A stretch of 53,302 nucleotides of DNA from Campylobacterales bacterium (GCA_014763895.1 JACXUM010000022.1:1-53302); one strand, 5' to 3'; shown: positions 2,870-43,342, counted from the stretch's first letter. A program made the numbers and translations. Notes: generated by a model from the sequence alone, not told the origin.

Positions 2870-4582
2870 TTAATATGATCTTTCTTTTACTTCAAATTTA
2901 CCAAGTACGACATCCGCATACTCTTGTGTGATGTTGAAATCTTTATCCATATAAGCATAAGTATGTTTTAGGAACTTTTCATCATCTCTTTGAGGAAAAT
3001 CTTCACGGAAGTGTCCACCACGGCTCTCTTCACGCGCCAATGCACCTTCTACGATGAAAAGGCTGTACTCTAACATATGCCCAAGTTCGATCGCTTCCTG
3101 AATCTCAGTGTTATAAACAGAAGATTTATCTTGAACACGGATCTCTTTGTAACGCTTCAACAGCTCTTTGATCTTCTCTTTTTGTCTACTCAAAGATTCT
3201 GCCGTCCTAAAGACACCAGCATCTCTTGTCATACTCTCCTGAAGCTCTTCTCTAAGTTTTGCAACTTTTTCGTTACCGTTGTTTGTTTTTACCCACTGAT
3301 ACTCAGCGATGAATGCAGCGGCATCTTGTTCAGTTGCAGGTCTAAGCTCAAGATTGCCAAGGTCTTTAACTATATTTTCCCCCGCATGTCTACCAAAAAG
3401 TAATGCTTCAAGTACAGAGTTTGCACCAAGTCTGTTCGCTCCGTGTACAGATACACATGAACATTCACCAGCCGCATAGAAACCTTCTACCAACTCTTTA
3501 GGGTTTTTGCGTACATGACAGTTGATGTCTACCGGGATACCGCCCATAGAGTAGTGAGCTGTAGCAGCGATATGGATAGGCTCTTTGAGCATATCCTGTC
3601 CAAGGAACGTGATCGCAAGTTCTCTAAGCTCAGGAAGCCTTGTAAGGATGATCTCCGGATCAAGGTGAGTCAGGTCGATGCTTACGGCATCCTTGTTAGG
3701 ACCTACACCTCTACCTTCCCTGATCTCTTGCATGATCGCACGGCTTACAACATCTCTGGATGCAAGTTCAAGTGCATTTGGAGCGTATTTCTCCATAAAT
3801 CTTTCGCCCTCTGAATTATAAAGACGGCCCCCTTCACCACGTGCCGCTTCAGAGATAAGGATACCTGAACCGCCAAGCCCGCTTGGGTGGAACTGTACGA
3901 ACTCCATATCCTCAAGCGGAAGTCCGTGACGCGCCACGATAGAGAGTGAATCTCCCGTATTGGCATGGGCATTTGAGTTGATCTTATAGGCTCTTGCGTG
4001 TCCACCTGTTGCGAACATAGTAGCTTTTGCATTGAAGATGGCAAATTTCGAATCCCTTATGTTGAAAGCGACGACACCCGATACTTTTCCATCCTTGTAG
4101 ATAAGATCACCTGCGTACCATTCATCGAAAACTTCAACATCTTCTCTGACACATTGCTCATAGATCGTCTGAAGCAGGGTAAGGCCTGTTCTGTCTTTTG
4201 CATAACAGGCTCTTGGCTTTGACTGTCCACCAAAAGGACGGATTGCGATGTCACCTTTGTCATCTCTTGAGAAAACAGCACCCATTTGTTCTGCCCATCT
4301 GATCGTTTCAGGTGCTTTGGTACACATCAACTCTACACAGTCCTGGTCAGCCAGATAATCACTACCTTTTACAGTGTCAAATTCATGAAGCTCCGTTGAA
4401 TCACCTTCTCCAAGCGCTGCGTTGATTCCACCTTGTGCCGCACCTGAATGGCTTCTTAGAGGGTGAAGTTTCGTGATTACGGCAGTTTTTTTACCTGCAG
4501 CCGTCAATTCACGTGCTGCAGCAAGTCCTGCAAGTCCCGCACCGACAATCACTGCATCGTATTGATAGATCTTAACATCCAT
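2870..4582 (-). CDS. sdhA: Succinate dehydrogenase/fumarate reductase flavoprotein subunit
   Basis: A protein of 570 residues. The Rossmann FAD motif [12 protein letters not shown] lies near the N-terminus, followed by the flavin attachment segment [15 protein letters not shown], in which the His before SGAAQ is the expected covalent FAD site. [21 protein letters not shown] and GGIPVD form the substrate site, and [18 protein letters not shown] is the C-terminal FAD loop. There is no twin-arginine signal, which separates it from the periplasmic MfrA enzymes and places the active site in the cytoplasm. It starts the sdhA-B-E operon and is divergent from thiL across 115 bases. Whether it works mainly as succinate dehydrogenase or as fumarate reductase cannot be read from sequence. 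Confidence 0.93.
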
Positions 4583-35921: not shown

Positions 35922-36773
35922 TTAGTAACCATTAAAGAGTTCCTGTATCTTTGAAAGGTCATGCTGGGTTTGATAAAGCGGTCTTGTATCTTTGCCTCGG
36001 AGATGCTCTTCAAAGGTTGCATGATGTTCTTTGTCCTGATAGATGATGCCCAAAGGCATCGGCATAGTCTCGAATGCTTTTTTAATGGCTTTGTCGAAAT
36101 CTGTATGATCATATGTATCATCAAGGATATAGGTATTCTCTTTAAACCATTGATAGGTGTTGATTTTATTAAAGGTTACGCAGGGCTGGAAAATATCTAC
36201 CAACGCATAGCCGCGATGGATGAAAGCAGCCTTCACGACTTCCTTGGCATGGGCATAATTACCGATATTGACACGGGAAACAAATCCTGCTTTCAATGAG
36301 AGTGCGACACCCAGCGGATTGAACGGTTCATTGCTCACACCGCTGACCTGTACTTTGGTGATGAAACCTTGCTGGCTGGTCGGGGAGGCCTGTCCTTTGG
36401 TTAGACCGTAGACCATATTGTTATGTACGATATGGATAATGTCTGGATTGCGTCTGATCGTATGAAGGAAATGGTTACCTCCCTCACCGTACATATCCCC
36501 GTCACCTCCCTCGGCGATCACTGTCAGTTCGGGATTGGCTGCCTTGATCGCTGTTGCGACAGGAAGCGCTCTTCCGTGCAATCCACCGAACATATTTGTA
36601 TCCACATAATAGGGTGTTTTGGCAGCCTGCCCGATCCCAGATACCATGACAATCTGCTGTTTTGGAACGGCCAAATCTTCCAACACTTCTTTGATAAGTT
36701 TCAAAATACCGAAATTCCCGCATCCCGGGCACCACGCGACATCAACATTTTCTCTCTCAAATATGTTCTGCAT
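35922..36773 (-). CDS. korB: 2-oxoacid:acceptor oxidoreductase beta subunit (KorB-like)
   Basis: The start ATG at 36773 overlaps the stop of the upstream gene as TGATG, with AAAGGA 6 bases before; a longer reading from 36779 is possible but poorly spaced. The protein has 283 residues. The thiamine diphosphate site is complete: WCPGCGNFGI, GIGQAAK, LHGRALPVATAIKAANP, and GDGDMYGEGGNHFLH with NNMVYGLTKGQASPTS. The motif order fits 2-oxoglutarate (or branched 2-oxoacid) oxidoreductases. It provides the catalytic TPP subunit for the fused gamma-alpha protein. No separate ferredoxin-like delta subunit is encoded next to it. Confidence 0.92.
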   Translation of the reverse strand: MQNIFERENVDVAWCPGCGNFGILKLIKEVLEDLAVPKQQIVMVSGIGQAAKTPYYVDTNMFGGLHGRALPVATAIKAANPELTVIAEGGDGDMYGEGGNHFLHTIRRNPDIIHIVHNNMVYGLTKGQASPTSQQGFITKVQVSGVSNEPFNPLGVALSLKAGFVSRVNIGNYAHAKEVVKAAFIHRGYALVDIFQPCVTFNKINTYQWFKENTYILDDTYDHTDFDKAIKKAFETMPMPLGIIYQDKEHHATFEEHLRGKDTRPLYQTQHDLSKIQELFNGY

Positions 36774-39247
36774 CACCATTCCTTTACTGCATTTTCAATC
36801 ATTATTGCAAGCTCGTCTGCAAAAAATTCAAAACCGTTATACTGCAAGATCATGTCATCCACCTTTATGCCATGAAGCTTCAGTTGATCGGCAAAAATCC
36901 CGTCCGCATTGTTCTCCACAACAAACTTGCGTTCATATGCTTCAAGCACTTGCAATTGCTTTTCTCCGAGAGGATGTACCCAACTAAAGTGCACATGACA
37001 AAGATGCGGATCATCCAGCAGTGAGAGTGCTTCTTCAATCGCACTGTAGGTGGATCCCCAGCCTATGATGGCAATATTACCGTTTCCGCTTATTTTGGGC
37101 AGAATGGCATTGGCATGGAGCATTTCACGTCTGCGTGAGCGTTTATCGATCATACGTACACGTGTTTCGTGATCTTCCGTTATCTGTCCCACTTCATCGT
37201 GTTCATCGCTCACACTACAGACCAATCCTTCACCCAAACCGGGTACGCTTCTTGGACTGATCCCATCTTCAGTCTCGGCATAGCGTTTATATGCTTTGTC
37301 ACTCTCTATAATATACCGATGTTGTTCAAATGCCGAAAAATCGATCTGGCCGATCGTACTCATCGAATCAGCCAGATGCTGGTCGCTTAAAAAGATCACG
37401 GGTATCTGGTAACGGTCGGCCAATTCAAACGCAAGATAGCCGCATTCAATGCACTCTTCGAGTGTTCCGGGGGCAAGTATGATACGTTCAAACGGTCCGT
37501 GGCCTGAATATATCGCCATATTGAGATCTCCCTGCTCACTACGCGTAGGAAGCCCCGTAGCAGGTCCAGGTCTTTGGGCCAGATAGATCACCGCCGGTGT
37601 TTCAGTCATACCGCTAAGGCTTAGTGCCTCGCCCATCAGAGCAAAACCTCCGCCGGAAGTGGTGGTCATAGCACGTGCACCTGCATACCATCCTCCCAGC
37701 ACCATATTCAACGAAGCGATCTCATCTTCGCTCTGTTCTACGATGATTGTGAATTTTTCAGAACAGGACGCCATAAAGTTTAACACACCGGTGGAAGGGG
37801 ACATCGGATAAGAGGTAACCATATTGCAGCCACCTGCCAAAAAGCCAAATCCAGATGCGGTCGTACCATCCATCAGATGCAGATTTTCCATTATCTGCTT
37901 ATTGTTTTGCGGAAGTTTCGCTACGGTAATGTTCTCTACGTTCGTTCCGGCACCATACCCCTCATCAGCCACTTGAACATTGAGGGTGTCGTCTTTTAAA
38001 TGGTTGCCTATACTTTCTAACAAAGCACGCTTCTCAAGTTTCAACAGACCAAATACAAAACCAGCCATATAGGTATTGATATAACGGAGATCTCCAAATT
38101 TTTTTGCACTCTCTTTCATCTCAACAGGTATAATATCCGGCATGTTGTGGGAGTATTCCATATCGGCAAAGACCAACGTATCACTTCTCCATCTCTCCTG
38201 CATATGTTCCAGTGAGGCTTCATCCATGGCAATGGAGACGTCGACCTTCCAGCATGGTGCATGGACTGGTGTATCGCTGATGCGTATCAATGTCGAATTG
38301 CTTCCCCCGCGTACACGTGACATAAACTCTTTGGTAGAAAAGACATAATATCCGTAGGCTTTGAAAGCTTCTGAAAGTATTTTTTCTATAGTATCGATCC
38401 CAGAACCTGCTGCCCCTCCTATGAGAATGGCAAGTCCTTGATGATCTTGTTGTTTGAGAAGTTCGTTCTTTTCCTCGGGGATTTTAAGTAATATACCCTC
38501 ATTTTCATGGATATCTTTTATAGTTTGCCCGGTTTTCATTTTGGAGTGATCACCCCATGTGATCTTGCCTCCATAGTATCCTAAAACTATGACACTCAGA
38601 CCGGTGAGCAAAACGATGCCATGATAGATTATCCCAAATGCGGAGCTGCTATAGACGATGTCCGGATTTTCCAGATAAATACCGATATTGAGTATTCCGA
38701 GTATAAGCGTTAGGATCGAAACGATAAGTTTGATGATGAAAGGAGGATAGGTCGAAAGATTATAATTGACACACCAGCTCAAGATGCCCGGTATCATTGC
38801 CACAAATCCCATGATCGTGGCGACCAAAAAGGTATAAAATACGCTCAAGGCATAGGCTTCTTTTTGATCATATAAAAATAAGAGATCCAATCCTGCCGCA
38901 AAAAGATGCAGTGCGATCGGAAAATGAACAGTCATGGGGTGGGGGTGATACTTTTGATACCACCTTTCAACCTTCATTTTAAAGGTCCATGGGAGAGAAG
39001 AGATCGTAGAGTTTTGCGATTCATAGGCTTCCAGTGTATCAACGACAGGAAAGTTTTTGAAAACTTCCTCGCCATGGGGAGCACCGGAGAGTTGGATAGT
39101 CAAATCTTCTCCCGCATAATGCAGACCTTCATGCTCACCCTCTTGCCATAACGGGCTTTGTGTCACATCATAAACAACATTCTTATAGGCTATATAAGCT
39201 TTCGAACCGTTGCGTCCATTATATTTTTTCAGTTCTTCAATTGTCAT
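36773..39247 (-). CDS. Fusion: cytochrome b5-like domain + DUF2231 membrane domain + 2-oxoacid:acceptor oxidoreductase gamma-alpha
   Basis: One uninterrupted frame of 824 residues with GAAGGA before the ATG. Residues 1-75 are a bacterial cytochrome b5-like haem/steroid-binding domain, with candidate haem ligands H39, H43 and H58 (APHGEEV). Residues 100-228 form a DUF2231 domain with four hydrophobic helices and a histidine-rich start (HPHPMTVHFPIALH). After a charged linker (230-268), residues 270-448 are the gamma domain (LIGGAAGSGIDTIEKIL, SRVRGGSN). Residues 460-824 are the alpha domain (GTTASGFGFLAGGCNMV, SYPMSPSTGV, RPGPATGLPTRSEQGDL). Gamma-alpha fusions are common; the membrane haem extension is what is unusual. 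An internal ATG at 38539 with weak GGTGAT could also give a soluble gamma-alpha form. Confidence 0.85.
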   Translation of the reverse strand: MTIEELKKYNGRNGSKAYIAYKNVVYDVTQSPLWQEGEHEGLHYAGEDLTIQLSGAPHGEEVFKNFPVVDTLEAYESQNSTISSLPWTFKMKVERWYQKYHPHPMTVHFPIALHLFAAGLDLLFLYDQKEAYALSVFYTFLVATIMGFVAMIPGILSWCVNYNLSTYPPFIIKLIVSILTLILGILNIGIYLENPDIVYSSSAFGIIYHGIVLLTGLSVIVLGYYGGKITWGDHSKMKTGQTIKDIHENEGILLKIPEEKNELLKQQDHQGLAILIGGAAGSGIDTIEKILSEAFKAYGYYVFSTKEFMSRVRGGSNSTLIRISDTPVHAPCWKVDVSIAMDEASLEHMQERWRSDTLVFADMEYSHNMPDIIPVEMKESAKKFGDLRYINTYMAGFVFGLLKLEKRALLESIGNHLKDDTLNVQVADEGYGAGTNVENITVAKLPQNNKQIMENLHLMDGTTASGFGFLAGGCNMVTSYPMSPSTGVLNFMASCSEKFTIIVEQSEDEIASLNMVLGGWYAGARAMTTTSGGGFALMGEALSLSGMTETPAVIYLAQRPGPATGLPTRSEQGDLNMAIYSGHGPFERIILAPGTLEECIECGYLAFELADRYQIPVIFLSDQHLADSMSTIGQIDFSAFEQHRYIIESDKAYKRYAETEDGISPRSVPGLGEGLVCSVSDEHDEVGQITEDHETRVRMIDKRSRRREMLHANAILPKISGNGNIAIIGWGSTYSAIEEALSLLDDPHLCHVHFSWVHPLGEKQLQVLEAYERKFVVENNADGIFADQLKLHGIKVDDMILQYNGFEFFADELAIMIENAVKEW

Positions 39248-40779: not shown

Positions 40780-41550
40780 ATGAAAAAACTGATGGTAATT
40801 GCGGCATTGGCTACAACATTAGGATTTGCAACTGATTTTTCTACAATGTCAAATCAAGATCTTGCAAAGATGGAAGGAAACGTACCTGCCAATGAAAAAG
40901 CGGCATTTGATGCAGAAGTTGATAAACGCATCGCACAAATGCCAAAATTTTCTTATTATGACTTTGATTCTGATGGTCAGATCAATGAAACCGAATTTTT
41001 AGAAGGCCACAAAAAACGTATGGATGAACGGACCGCAGAGGGCAGAATGATGAGAAATGCCGGCAATGCACCGTCATTTGCCGATATAGACACCGATAAA
41101 AACGGTAAAGTGTCTCCTGAAGAGTTTAGACATCACCAAATCCTGCAACTGAAAAATCCCAACAAAGGTATGATGATGCAAGGCCAAGGCATGAAATGCG
41201 GTGGCAATGGACCTGGCATGGGTATGGGAAGAGGAATGGGAATGGGCAAAATGCGTATGAGACAAATGCCCCAATTCTCTGATTGTGATCTCAATAATGA
41301 CGGACAAATTGTTGAAAATGAATTTCTGGAAGCACGTGCCAAACGTATGAACGAACGTGCGGAGGAAGGGAGAATGATGAAAAATGCCGGGAATGCACCG
41401 TCATTTGGAGATATAGATACCGATAAAAACGGAAAAATAACCCCCGAAGAATTCCATCAGCACCAAATGCAGCAAATGCAGAATCCTAATAAAGGTATGA
41501 TGAAATGCAATGGCAATGGAATGAATATGAAATGTAATACCGCCAAATAA
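40780..41550 (+). CDS. Secreted EF-hand protein with four calcium-binding loops, Met/Gly-rich linker
   Basis: A protein of 256 residues with GAAAGGA before the ATG and a signal peptide ending near GFATD. Four canonical EF loops are seen: residues 61-72 (DFDSDGQINETE), 104-115 (DTDKNGKVSPEE), 160-171 (DLNNDGQIVENE) and 203-214 (DTDKNGKITPEE). They form two near-identical tandem halves of about 100 residues, each ending in NPNKGMM. The halves are joined by a Met/Gly-rich linker (GMGMGRGMGMGKMRMRQM), and the C-terminus adds MKC-type Met/Cys text. Calcium binding in the periplasm is well supported; Met/Cys runs suggest soft-metal (copper) contact, which is inference. Confidence 0.85.
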   Translation: MKKLMVIAALATTLGFATDFSTMSNQDLAKMEGNVPANEKAAFDAEVDKRIAQMPKFSYYDFDSDGQINETEFLEGHKKRMDERTAEGRMMRNAGNAPSFADIDTDKNGKVSPEEFRHHQILQLKNPNKGMMMQGQGMKCGGNGPGMGMGRGMGMGKMRMRQMPQFSDCDLNNDGQIVENEFLEARAKRMNERAEEGRMMKNAGNAPSFGDIDTDKNGKITPEEFHQHQMQQMQNPNKGMMKCNGNGMNMKCNTAK

Positions 41551-42769: not shown

Positions 42770-43342
42770 ATGAAACTTCAAACCATTTTACTTTCAGCAC
42801 TATTGGCAACCTCATTGTTCGCTGCAGATCAAAATGCAACAGCTCCTATGACAACTAAACAAGAGGGTGTTCAATATATCAAAATGTTGGGTGAAGCACT
42901 CAAATCTCAATTACAGGCCCAGATGAAAGCCGATCCCTCCGGTATGAGTGCTTTAGGTTTCTGTACGGCAAAAGCGATGGAGATCACCAAAGAAGTCAAC
43001 CAAAAACTTCCGACTTATGCATCAGTTAGACGTACGGCACTTAAAACCAGAAATGAAGGCAATGCTCCGGATGCGATCGATACACAAGTGATGCAAGACT
43101 ATGAAAAAGCGATCGCTGATAAGACATTTACTCCGACAGATATCAAAGTGGTAGAAGAGGGCAATGTAACAAGACTCTATAAACCTCTTATCACTGAGGC
43201 TCCTTGCTTAAAATGTCACGGTACCCAACTAAGTCCTGACATCCAAGCTTCACTCAAAGTCAATTATACAAAAGACCAGGCTACAGGATTCACCGAAGGA
43301 TCACTCAGAGGTGTGATCGTAGCTGAGATCAAAAAACACTAA
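42770..43342 (+). CDS. Periplasmic DUF3365 (Tll0287-like) haem protein
   Basis: A protein of 190 residues with AAAAGGAAA before the ATG. The signal peptide ends LFAAD. DUF3365 text is clear: FCTAKAMEITKEVN, VRRTALKTRNEGNAPD, and one haem c site CLKCHG near residue 144, followed by GSLRGVIVAEI. The family binds haem and is fused to sensor kinases in other bacteria; here it stands alone. A periplasmic redox or haem-sensing role is inferred. Confidence 0.85.
   Translation: MKLQTILLSALLATSLFAADQNATAPMTTKQEGVQYIKMLGEALKSQLQAQMKADPSGMSALGFCTAKAMEITKEVNQKLPTYASVRRTALKTRNEGNAPDAIDTQVMQDYEKAIADKTFTPTDIKVVEEGNVTRLYKPLITEAPCLKCHGTQLSPDIQASLKVNYTKDQATGFTEGSLRGVIVAEIKKH

Follow-up and report, generated by a model that had tools for sequence, protein, structure and literature searches.

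2-Oxoacid:ferredoxin oxidoreductases (OFORs) are described as soluble, oxygen-labile enzymes coupled to ferredoxin. Members of the two-subunit class, made of a gamma-alpha and a beta chain, have no ferredoxin domain and use an external ferredoxin, and the single cluster of the Sulfolobus OFOR sits close to the surface of a large, open pocket, the modelled docking site of ferredoxin (PMC5020499). The substrate residues of this enzyme have been described, and Lys49b and Asp468a are reported to be needed for its 2-oxoglutarate activity (PMC5020499). Por and Oor of Campylobacter are labile to oxygen (PMC4257069), and how autotrophic Campylobacterota run the OFORs of the reverse TCA cycle near oxygen is debated (e.g. 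PMC10066037).

The closest described systems are the Sulfolobus tokodaii enzymes StOFOR1/2 (5b48, 5b46) and the Magnetococcus marinus OGOR (6n2n), in which a gamma-alpha chain with domains III-I-II pairs with a beta chain formed by domain VI. The enzyme reported here, encoded in a window of 53,302 nucleotides (the whole stretch of DNA analysed) from a Campylobacterales bacterium, has the same chains and likewise no ferredoxin domain but, unlike them, carries an N-terminal cytochrome b5-DUF2231 extension with four predicted transmembrane helices. The initial annotation knew of no OFOR with such an extension, and a literature search, with most subscription papers outside it, bore this out: it returned no paper describing a haem-type or membrane addition to an OFOR, no cytochrome b5 joined to an OFOR, and nothing relevant on DUF2231 paired with cytochrome b5 or on DUF2231 function.

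The fused gene and its parts

The minus-strand open reading frame at 36773-39247 encodes 824 amino acids with no internal stop in the window translation, and is followed by korB. The features of the locus are as follows.

36773..39247, minus strand: fusion gene, cytochrome b5 - DUF2231 - OFOR gamma-alpha, 824 amino acids (Pfam, NCBIfam, kept in relatives)
39032..39247, minus strand: prokaryotic cytochrome b5 domain, residues 1-72 (Pfam Cyt-b5, structure matches to 6nzx/6vz6, invariant His39, His43 and His58)
38549..38944, minus strand: DUF2231, residues 102-233, four predicted transmembrane helices (Pfam, hydropathy, AlphaFold2, His conservation)
38444..38554, minus strand: disordered linker, residues 232-268 (pLDDT <50; 31-67 amino acids long in relatives)
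37958..38440, minus strand: OFOR gamma domain (domain III), residues ~270-430 (Pfam, structure superposition)
36776..37885, minus strand: OFOR alpha (domains I-II), residues ~455-824, with YPMSP motif at 480-484 and Arg559 (Pfam, superposition, conservation)
35922..36779, minus strand: korB, OFOR beta subunit, TPP and Fe-S (Pfam TPP_enzyme_C and PFO_beta_C)
38537..38539, minus strand: possible internal ATG start at Met237, preceded by a Shine-Dalgarno-like GGGGTGA (without conservation across relatives)

All domains of the fused frame exceed their Pfam cut-offs. The Cyt-b5 profile (PF00173) matches residues 1-65 (E = 2e-6; 28.1 bits, cut-off 23.7) and DUF2231 (PF09990) residues 102-233 (E = 1.9e-12; 47.9 bits, cut-off 26.4), while the POR/gamma and POR_N/alpha profiles lie above their curated cut-offs at residues 279-430 and 469-700 (E = 3.8e-49 for the latter). 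The NCBIfam model for 2-oxoacid:acceptor oxidoreductase gamma-alpha chains, TIGR03710, spans residues 272-813 at 557 bits (cut-off 482.75). KorB passes the beta-subunit model TIGR02177 (342.6 bits, cut-off 261.9) and falls below the curated cut-off of NF008821 (PRK11869 beta; 417.6 vs 438 bits). As the initial annotation had read it, the two genes meet in a TGATG junction, where the TGA that ends the fusion, at 36775-36773, shares bases with the ATG of KorB Met3; the korB start in relatives corresponds to Met2 or Met3. The linker, which it had placed at 38480-38560, lies close to that position.

Between close pairs of relatives dN/dS is 0.06-0.23 in the cytochrome b5 and DUF2231 parts, 0.07-0.14 in the OFOR part and 0.14-0.44 in the linker, values which indicate that all parts of the fusion are under purifying selection. 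Chance or an assembly error is rejected because complete fused frames recur in other genomes and because dN/dS is low.

The window genome encodes three further OFORs, OorDABC (contig C9), PorGDAB (C25) and a NifJ-type PFOR (C35), which answers the earlier question about a soluble kor and makes the fusion enzyme an extra OFOR rather than the sole one. OorDABC of Campylobacterota, for which 8ys5 gives the complex from Helicobacter pylori, belongs to the same catalytic superfamily but, unlike the fusion, consists of four separate subunits including delta, retains the cluster cysteine in OorB (GIGC) and has no membrane module.

A promoter and terminator scan at the locus gave nothing informative. 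Near the fusion, on the opposite strand, 40780-41550 encodes a small protein in which EF-hand-like motifs recur (DFDSDGQINETEF, DIDTDKNGKVSPEEF) alongside stretches rich in Met and Gly. The product of 42770-43342, a secreted-looking protein of 190 amino acids, contains CLKCH and is probably a c-type cytochrome with a single haem.

Distribution and gene order in Campylobacterota

Searches for relatives covered the family (175 genomes) and the order (299 genomes) and turned up the same complete fused frame in other species. The N-terminal module was found in 31 loci among 84,980 species genomes scanned with two peptide patterns, which remoter forms may escape. All are Campylobacterota by record title or by grouping, with Sulfurovum, Sulfurimonas, Sulfuricurvum, one Arcobacter MAG and one further MAG grouping among them. 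The counts that follow refer to 44 roughly distinct Campylobacterota loci. The fusion is complete in 26; in one (L065) its frame breaks off within gamma, and in another (L090) a contig end cuts it. Cytochrome b5-DUF2231 stands as its own gene directly before the OFOR in eight, and DUF2231 without cytochrome b5 takes that place in five; two loci have the OFOR without a module and one (L072, with 1.4 kb of downstream sequence) the module without an OFOR. Counting the 26 complete fusions, the interrupted one and the 13 pairs of neighbouring genes, 40 of the 44 loci have the module in the OFOR gene or immediately next to it. No relative was found among the viral contigs searched, and a plasmid search returned OFOR parts only, none covering 80% of the query.

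The initial annotation held that separate adjacent genes in related genomes would speak against a real fusion. Some relatives do have separate genes, most of them overlapping stop to start (ATGA), but others are fused, and in a tree built from the OFOR columns only, the fused sequences as one clade were rejected (AU test, p-AU 3e-6), with at least three changes of state. One Sulfurovum clade mixes fused, separate and module-less forms. The mixture points to a fusion and fission series of partners rather than an artefact, and a single fusion event is rejected by the AU test, although long branches (L041, L073, L079) make exact placement in the tree unsure. As the fused state is not monophyletic, the genes have joined and/or separated more than once, and this speaks for a functional partnership of module and OFOR.

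Three loci or pairs of loci have features of their own. At L065:9001-11457, whose sequence is the same as that of L049, the frame is broken in the gamma domain in one MAG, as a sequencing error or a broken copy. One Sulfurovum MAG (G126) carries the fusion twice, as genes that differ in sequence and lie on separate contigs (L028 and L029), by duplication or from mixed strains. At L041:2710-6222 (G140) the fusion lies inside a 1170-codon open frame whose first ~326 codons look like a chance extension; the conserved start is at 3688.

An iron superoxide dismutase gene, sodB, lies near the fusion or OFOR in 17 of the 44 loci (L033-L036, L046, L039, L040, L060, L063, L064, L083, L090, L096, L097, L099, L101, L102). 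In most of these it lies immediately upstream in the same orientation, 22-64 bp away, or ~400-900 bp away in one Sulfurovum subclade (distances between matches). Genes of the suf system adjoin or lie within 5 kb in eight loci, all Sulfurovum, which carry sufB, sufC, sufD, sufE and a DUF59 gene near the fusion. By our own estimate, the chance of a given gene lying so near in genomes of ~2000 genes is well under 1%, a figure to be read with the relatedness of the loci in mind. The sodB link is frequent, not universal, and the window genome has both sodB and suf away from the fusion, on C18 and C12 respectively. At L036:813-2698 the suf genes are followed by a second pair encoding a SufC-like ATPase and a SufD-like protein.

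The haem-type module and the catalytic part

An AlphaFold2 model of the N-terminal module, made with 38 relatives, has a mean pLDDT of 86.6 over residues 1-237 and contains a small alpha/beta domain followed by four helices. The predicted transmembrane helices (~104-126, 130-162, 168-193 and 203-231) agree with hydropathy, and the linker falls below pLDDT 50 in the full-length model. With four membrane helices, the cytochrome b5 domain and the catalytic part are predicted to share one side of the membrane, which would be the cytoplasm, as OFORs are cytoplasmic. This topology speaks against a soluble enzyme and makes it very likely that the catalytic part is anchored to the inner membrane, as had been proposed from the locus alone.

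The cytochrome b5 domain has the same fold as the prokaryotic cytochrome b5 proteins of Hadesarchaea YNP_N21 and Methanococcoides burtonii (6nzx, 6vz6), with 51-55% identity over 73 residues and Z scores of 13.6 and 13.2; 6nzx is described as a b-type cytochrome (PMC7096707). His39, His43 and His58, found in every sequence having the domain, match three histidines at the same places in these structures, which were solved as lone small domains, whereas here the domain is joined to a membrane domain and an enzyme. DUF2231 has His103, His108, His114 and His209 in 38 of 38 sequences. Searches with this domain gave no significant structural relative, only generic four-helix-bundle matches with CcmC, STEAP and b561 at low significance; the best Foldseek membrane match was CcmC (E = 0.056), and the Z score of 9.4 with cytochrome b561 4o6y lies inside the background of helical bundles. 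From their conserved histidines, both domains are candidates for haem binding.

The catalytic part, residues 268-824, can be superposed end to end on both the Sulfolobus OFOR2 alpha chain (Z 39.9, 537 residues, 2.8 A) and the Magnetococcus OGOR (Z 38.9); across 5b48, 5b46 and 6n2n the Z scores are 38-40 over 500-540 residues, and most active-site residues are kept. Domains III-I-II in one chain and VI in the other give the Sulfolobus-type layout. Because two-subunit OFORs normally lack a ferredoxin domain (PMC5020499), the missing delta subunit, which the initial annotation took to fit an altered route for the electrons, was discarded as evidence. The substrate residues Arg559 (Arg344a in Sulfolobus), KorB Lys54 (Lys49b) and KorB Leu126 (Leu123b) are retained, as are Gly-Asp-Gly and Asn of the Mg-TPP site (D93-G94-D95, N121). 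Ser483 stands at the Thr257a position in the alignment to the Sulfolobus OFOR, and the motif reads YPMSP in the fusion vs YPITP in the Sulfolobus and Magnetococcus enzymes. Of the residues needed for 2-oxoglutarate activity in Sulfolobus, Lys49b has its counterpart Lys54 conserved in 13 of 14 sequences, but Asp681, considered with Asp468a, is replaced by His or Gly in 8 of 30; relatives may therefore differ in substrate range.

KorB has just three cysteines (Cys17, Cys20 and Cys200), and the four-Cys [4Fe-4S] ligand set of the Sulfolobus-type beta subunit is not present in it; Gln51 stands where the Sulfolobus and Magnetococcus beta chains have the fourth cluster cysteine. The motif GIGQ (GIGQAAK) occurs in every KorB of the group, fused or unfused, and in the clostridial gamma-alpha/beta OFOR of Peptoclostridium acidaminophilum (EAL2_RS13085), whose gamma-alpha chain is 38-40% identical and, unlike the fusion, has no N-terminal extension. 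OorB of the window genome and another Sulfurovum KorAB type (L021-L023) have GIGC, with Cys. Gln51 as a feature of the fusion is ruled out by the unfused relatives and the clostridial enzyme; as these sequences indicate, it is a subfamily trait and not tied to the fusion.

Possible routes for the electrons

As the likeliest reading, we tentatively propose that the haem module anchors the OFOR and that electrons leave its cluster for the membrane by way of haem b. In the cytoplasm, KorB together with the gamma-alpha part would carry TPP and a single Fe-S cluster and convert a 2-oxoacid to acyl-CoA by oxidative decarboxylation. The N-terminal module would tether this complex to the inner membrane through the DUF2231 four-helix bundle, while its cytochrome b5 domain and the linker stay on the cytoplasmic side. 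Since the Sulfolobus cluster lies near the surface of an open pocket, a tethered haem domain beside the gamma domain could reach it, and haem b would take electrons there, in the pocket modelled for external ferredoxin. A second haem between the conserved DUF2231 histidines would possibly relay them, and passage to the menaquinone pool would keep them from O2 and make the reaction run oxidatively. Such haem-mediated export to quinone is plausible. The architecture, conservation, gene partnership, predicted domain folds and active-site residues are observed, and from here we infer, most strongly for the anchoring, the membrane location, haem content, direction and quinone acceptor of the enzyme. 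The proposal is favoured by a link between module and OFOR that holds in 40 of 44 loci and has outlasted repeated fusion or fission, by the likeness to archaeal cytochrome b5 and the invariant His in both domains, and by four helices with both ends on one side of the membrane next to a catalytic part that superposes on OFORs with its active-site residues kept. Three ordinary OFORs remain in the genome for ferredoxin-linked work, and the sodB and suf neighbours fit an oxygen-exposed setting. It is weakened by haem ligands that are candidates only, by the generic matches of DUF2231, and by relatives that keep DUF2231 only or no module, in which cytochrome b5 is dispensable. Passing low-potential electrons to menaquinone would also waste energy, and the missing fourth Cys makes cluster form and potential uncertain.

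Were the module an anchor or regulator only, fixing the OFOR at the membrane with any haem sensing O2 or redox, electrons would still go to ferredoxin or flavodoxin. The long, disordered and variable linker, which does not fix the haem near the cluster, the loss of cytochrome b5 or the whole module in some relatives, and the normal use of external ferredoxin by two-subunit OFORs (PMC5020499) agree with this, but a plain anchor needs neither invariant His in two domains nor a cytochrome b5 of the electron-carrier type, and we regard it as rather unlikely. In a protective role, the module would remove superoxide or divert electrons from the radical intermediate, shielding an oxygen-sensitive OFOR, and the sodB neighbours would do the rest. 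The E. coli superoxide oxidase CybB removes superoxide and passes the electrons to quinone. Such protection would suit the oxygen lability of Campylobacter Por and Oor (PMC4257069), the frequent sodB genes, often 22-64 bp upstream, and the Fe-S assembly genes in eight loci. It is nevertheless distinctly unlikely, given a DUF2231 resemblance to cytochrome b561 within helical-bundle background and a window genome whose sodB is on another contig.

The altered cluster site raises the question whether this is an ordinary oxidative OFOR at all, since three cysteines could instead belong to a TPP-dependent 2-oxoacid decarboxylase or hold a [3Fe-4S] cluster in another role. Gln51 is present in every KorB of the group, and, going by the title of ref. 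27 as cited in PMC5020499, all four Cys of the Sulfolobus enzyme are required for CoA-dependent oxidative, not non-oxidative, decarboxylation. The same Gln in the Peptoclostridium OFOR has the appearance of a subfamily trait, however, and three Cys and the majority of the remaining active-site residues are retained, which leaves this improbable. Least credible, and close to negligible, is an artefact or unused fusion whose true product starts at Met237, with the upstream part as a remnant. The product from the internal ATG at 38539 considered earlier does have a Shine-Dalgarno-like site stronger than that of the annotated start (dG -6.0 vs -4.8), but no such start is conserved across fused relatives, complete fused frames occur in 26 loci, and the N-terminal part is itself under purifying selection.

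The export reading can be carried further, to a respiratory CoA-acylating 2-oxoacid:quinone oxidoreductase evolved in Campylobacterota, in which haem wires an OFOR with an altered three-Cys cluster into the quinone pool and bypasses ferredoxin; this more specific proposal is the more doubtful of the two. The component families are known, and as far as could be tested their combination, spread and gene partnership are new. The findings suggest that Sulfurovum and related Campylobacterota, by fusing the OFOR large subunit to a haem-type membrane module or placing it adjacent to one, have a membrane-bound version of the enzyme, which may hand electrons to the membrane instead of ferredoxin. The OFOR would give DUF2231 a candidate functional partner, and a conserved extra OFOR tied to this module, often beside sodB and suf, offers a testable route to membrane-bound OFORs that feed quinone or are shielded from O2.
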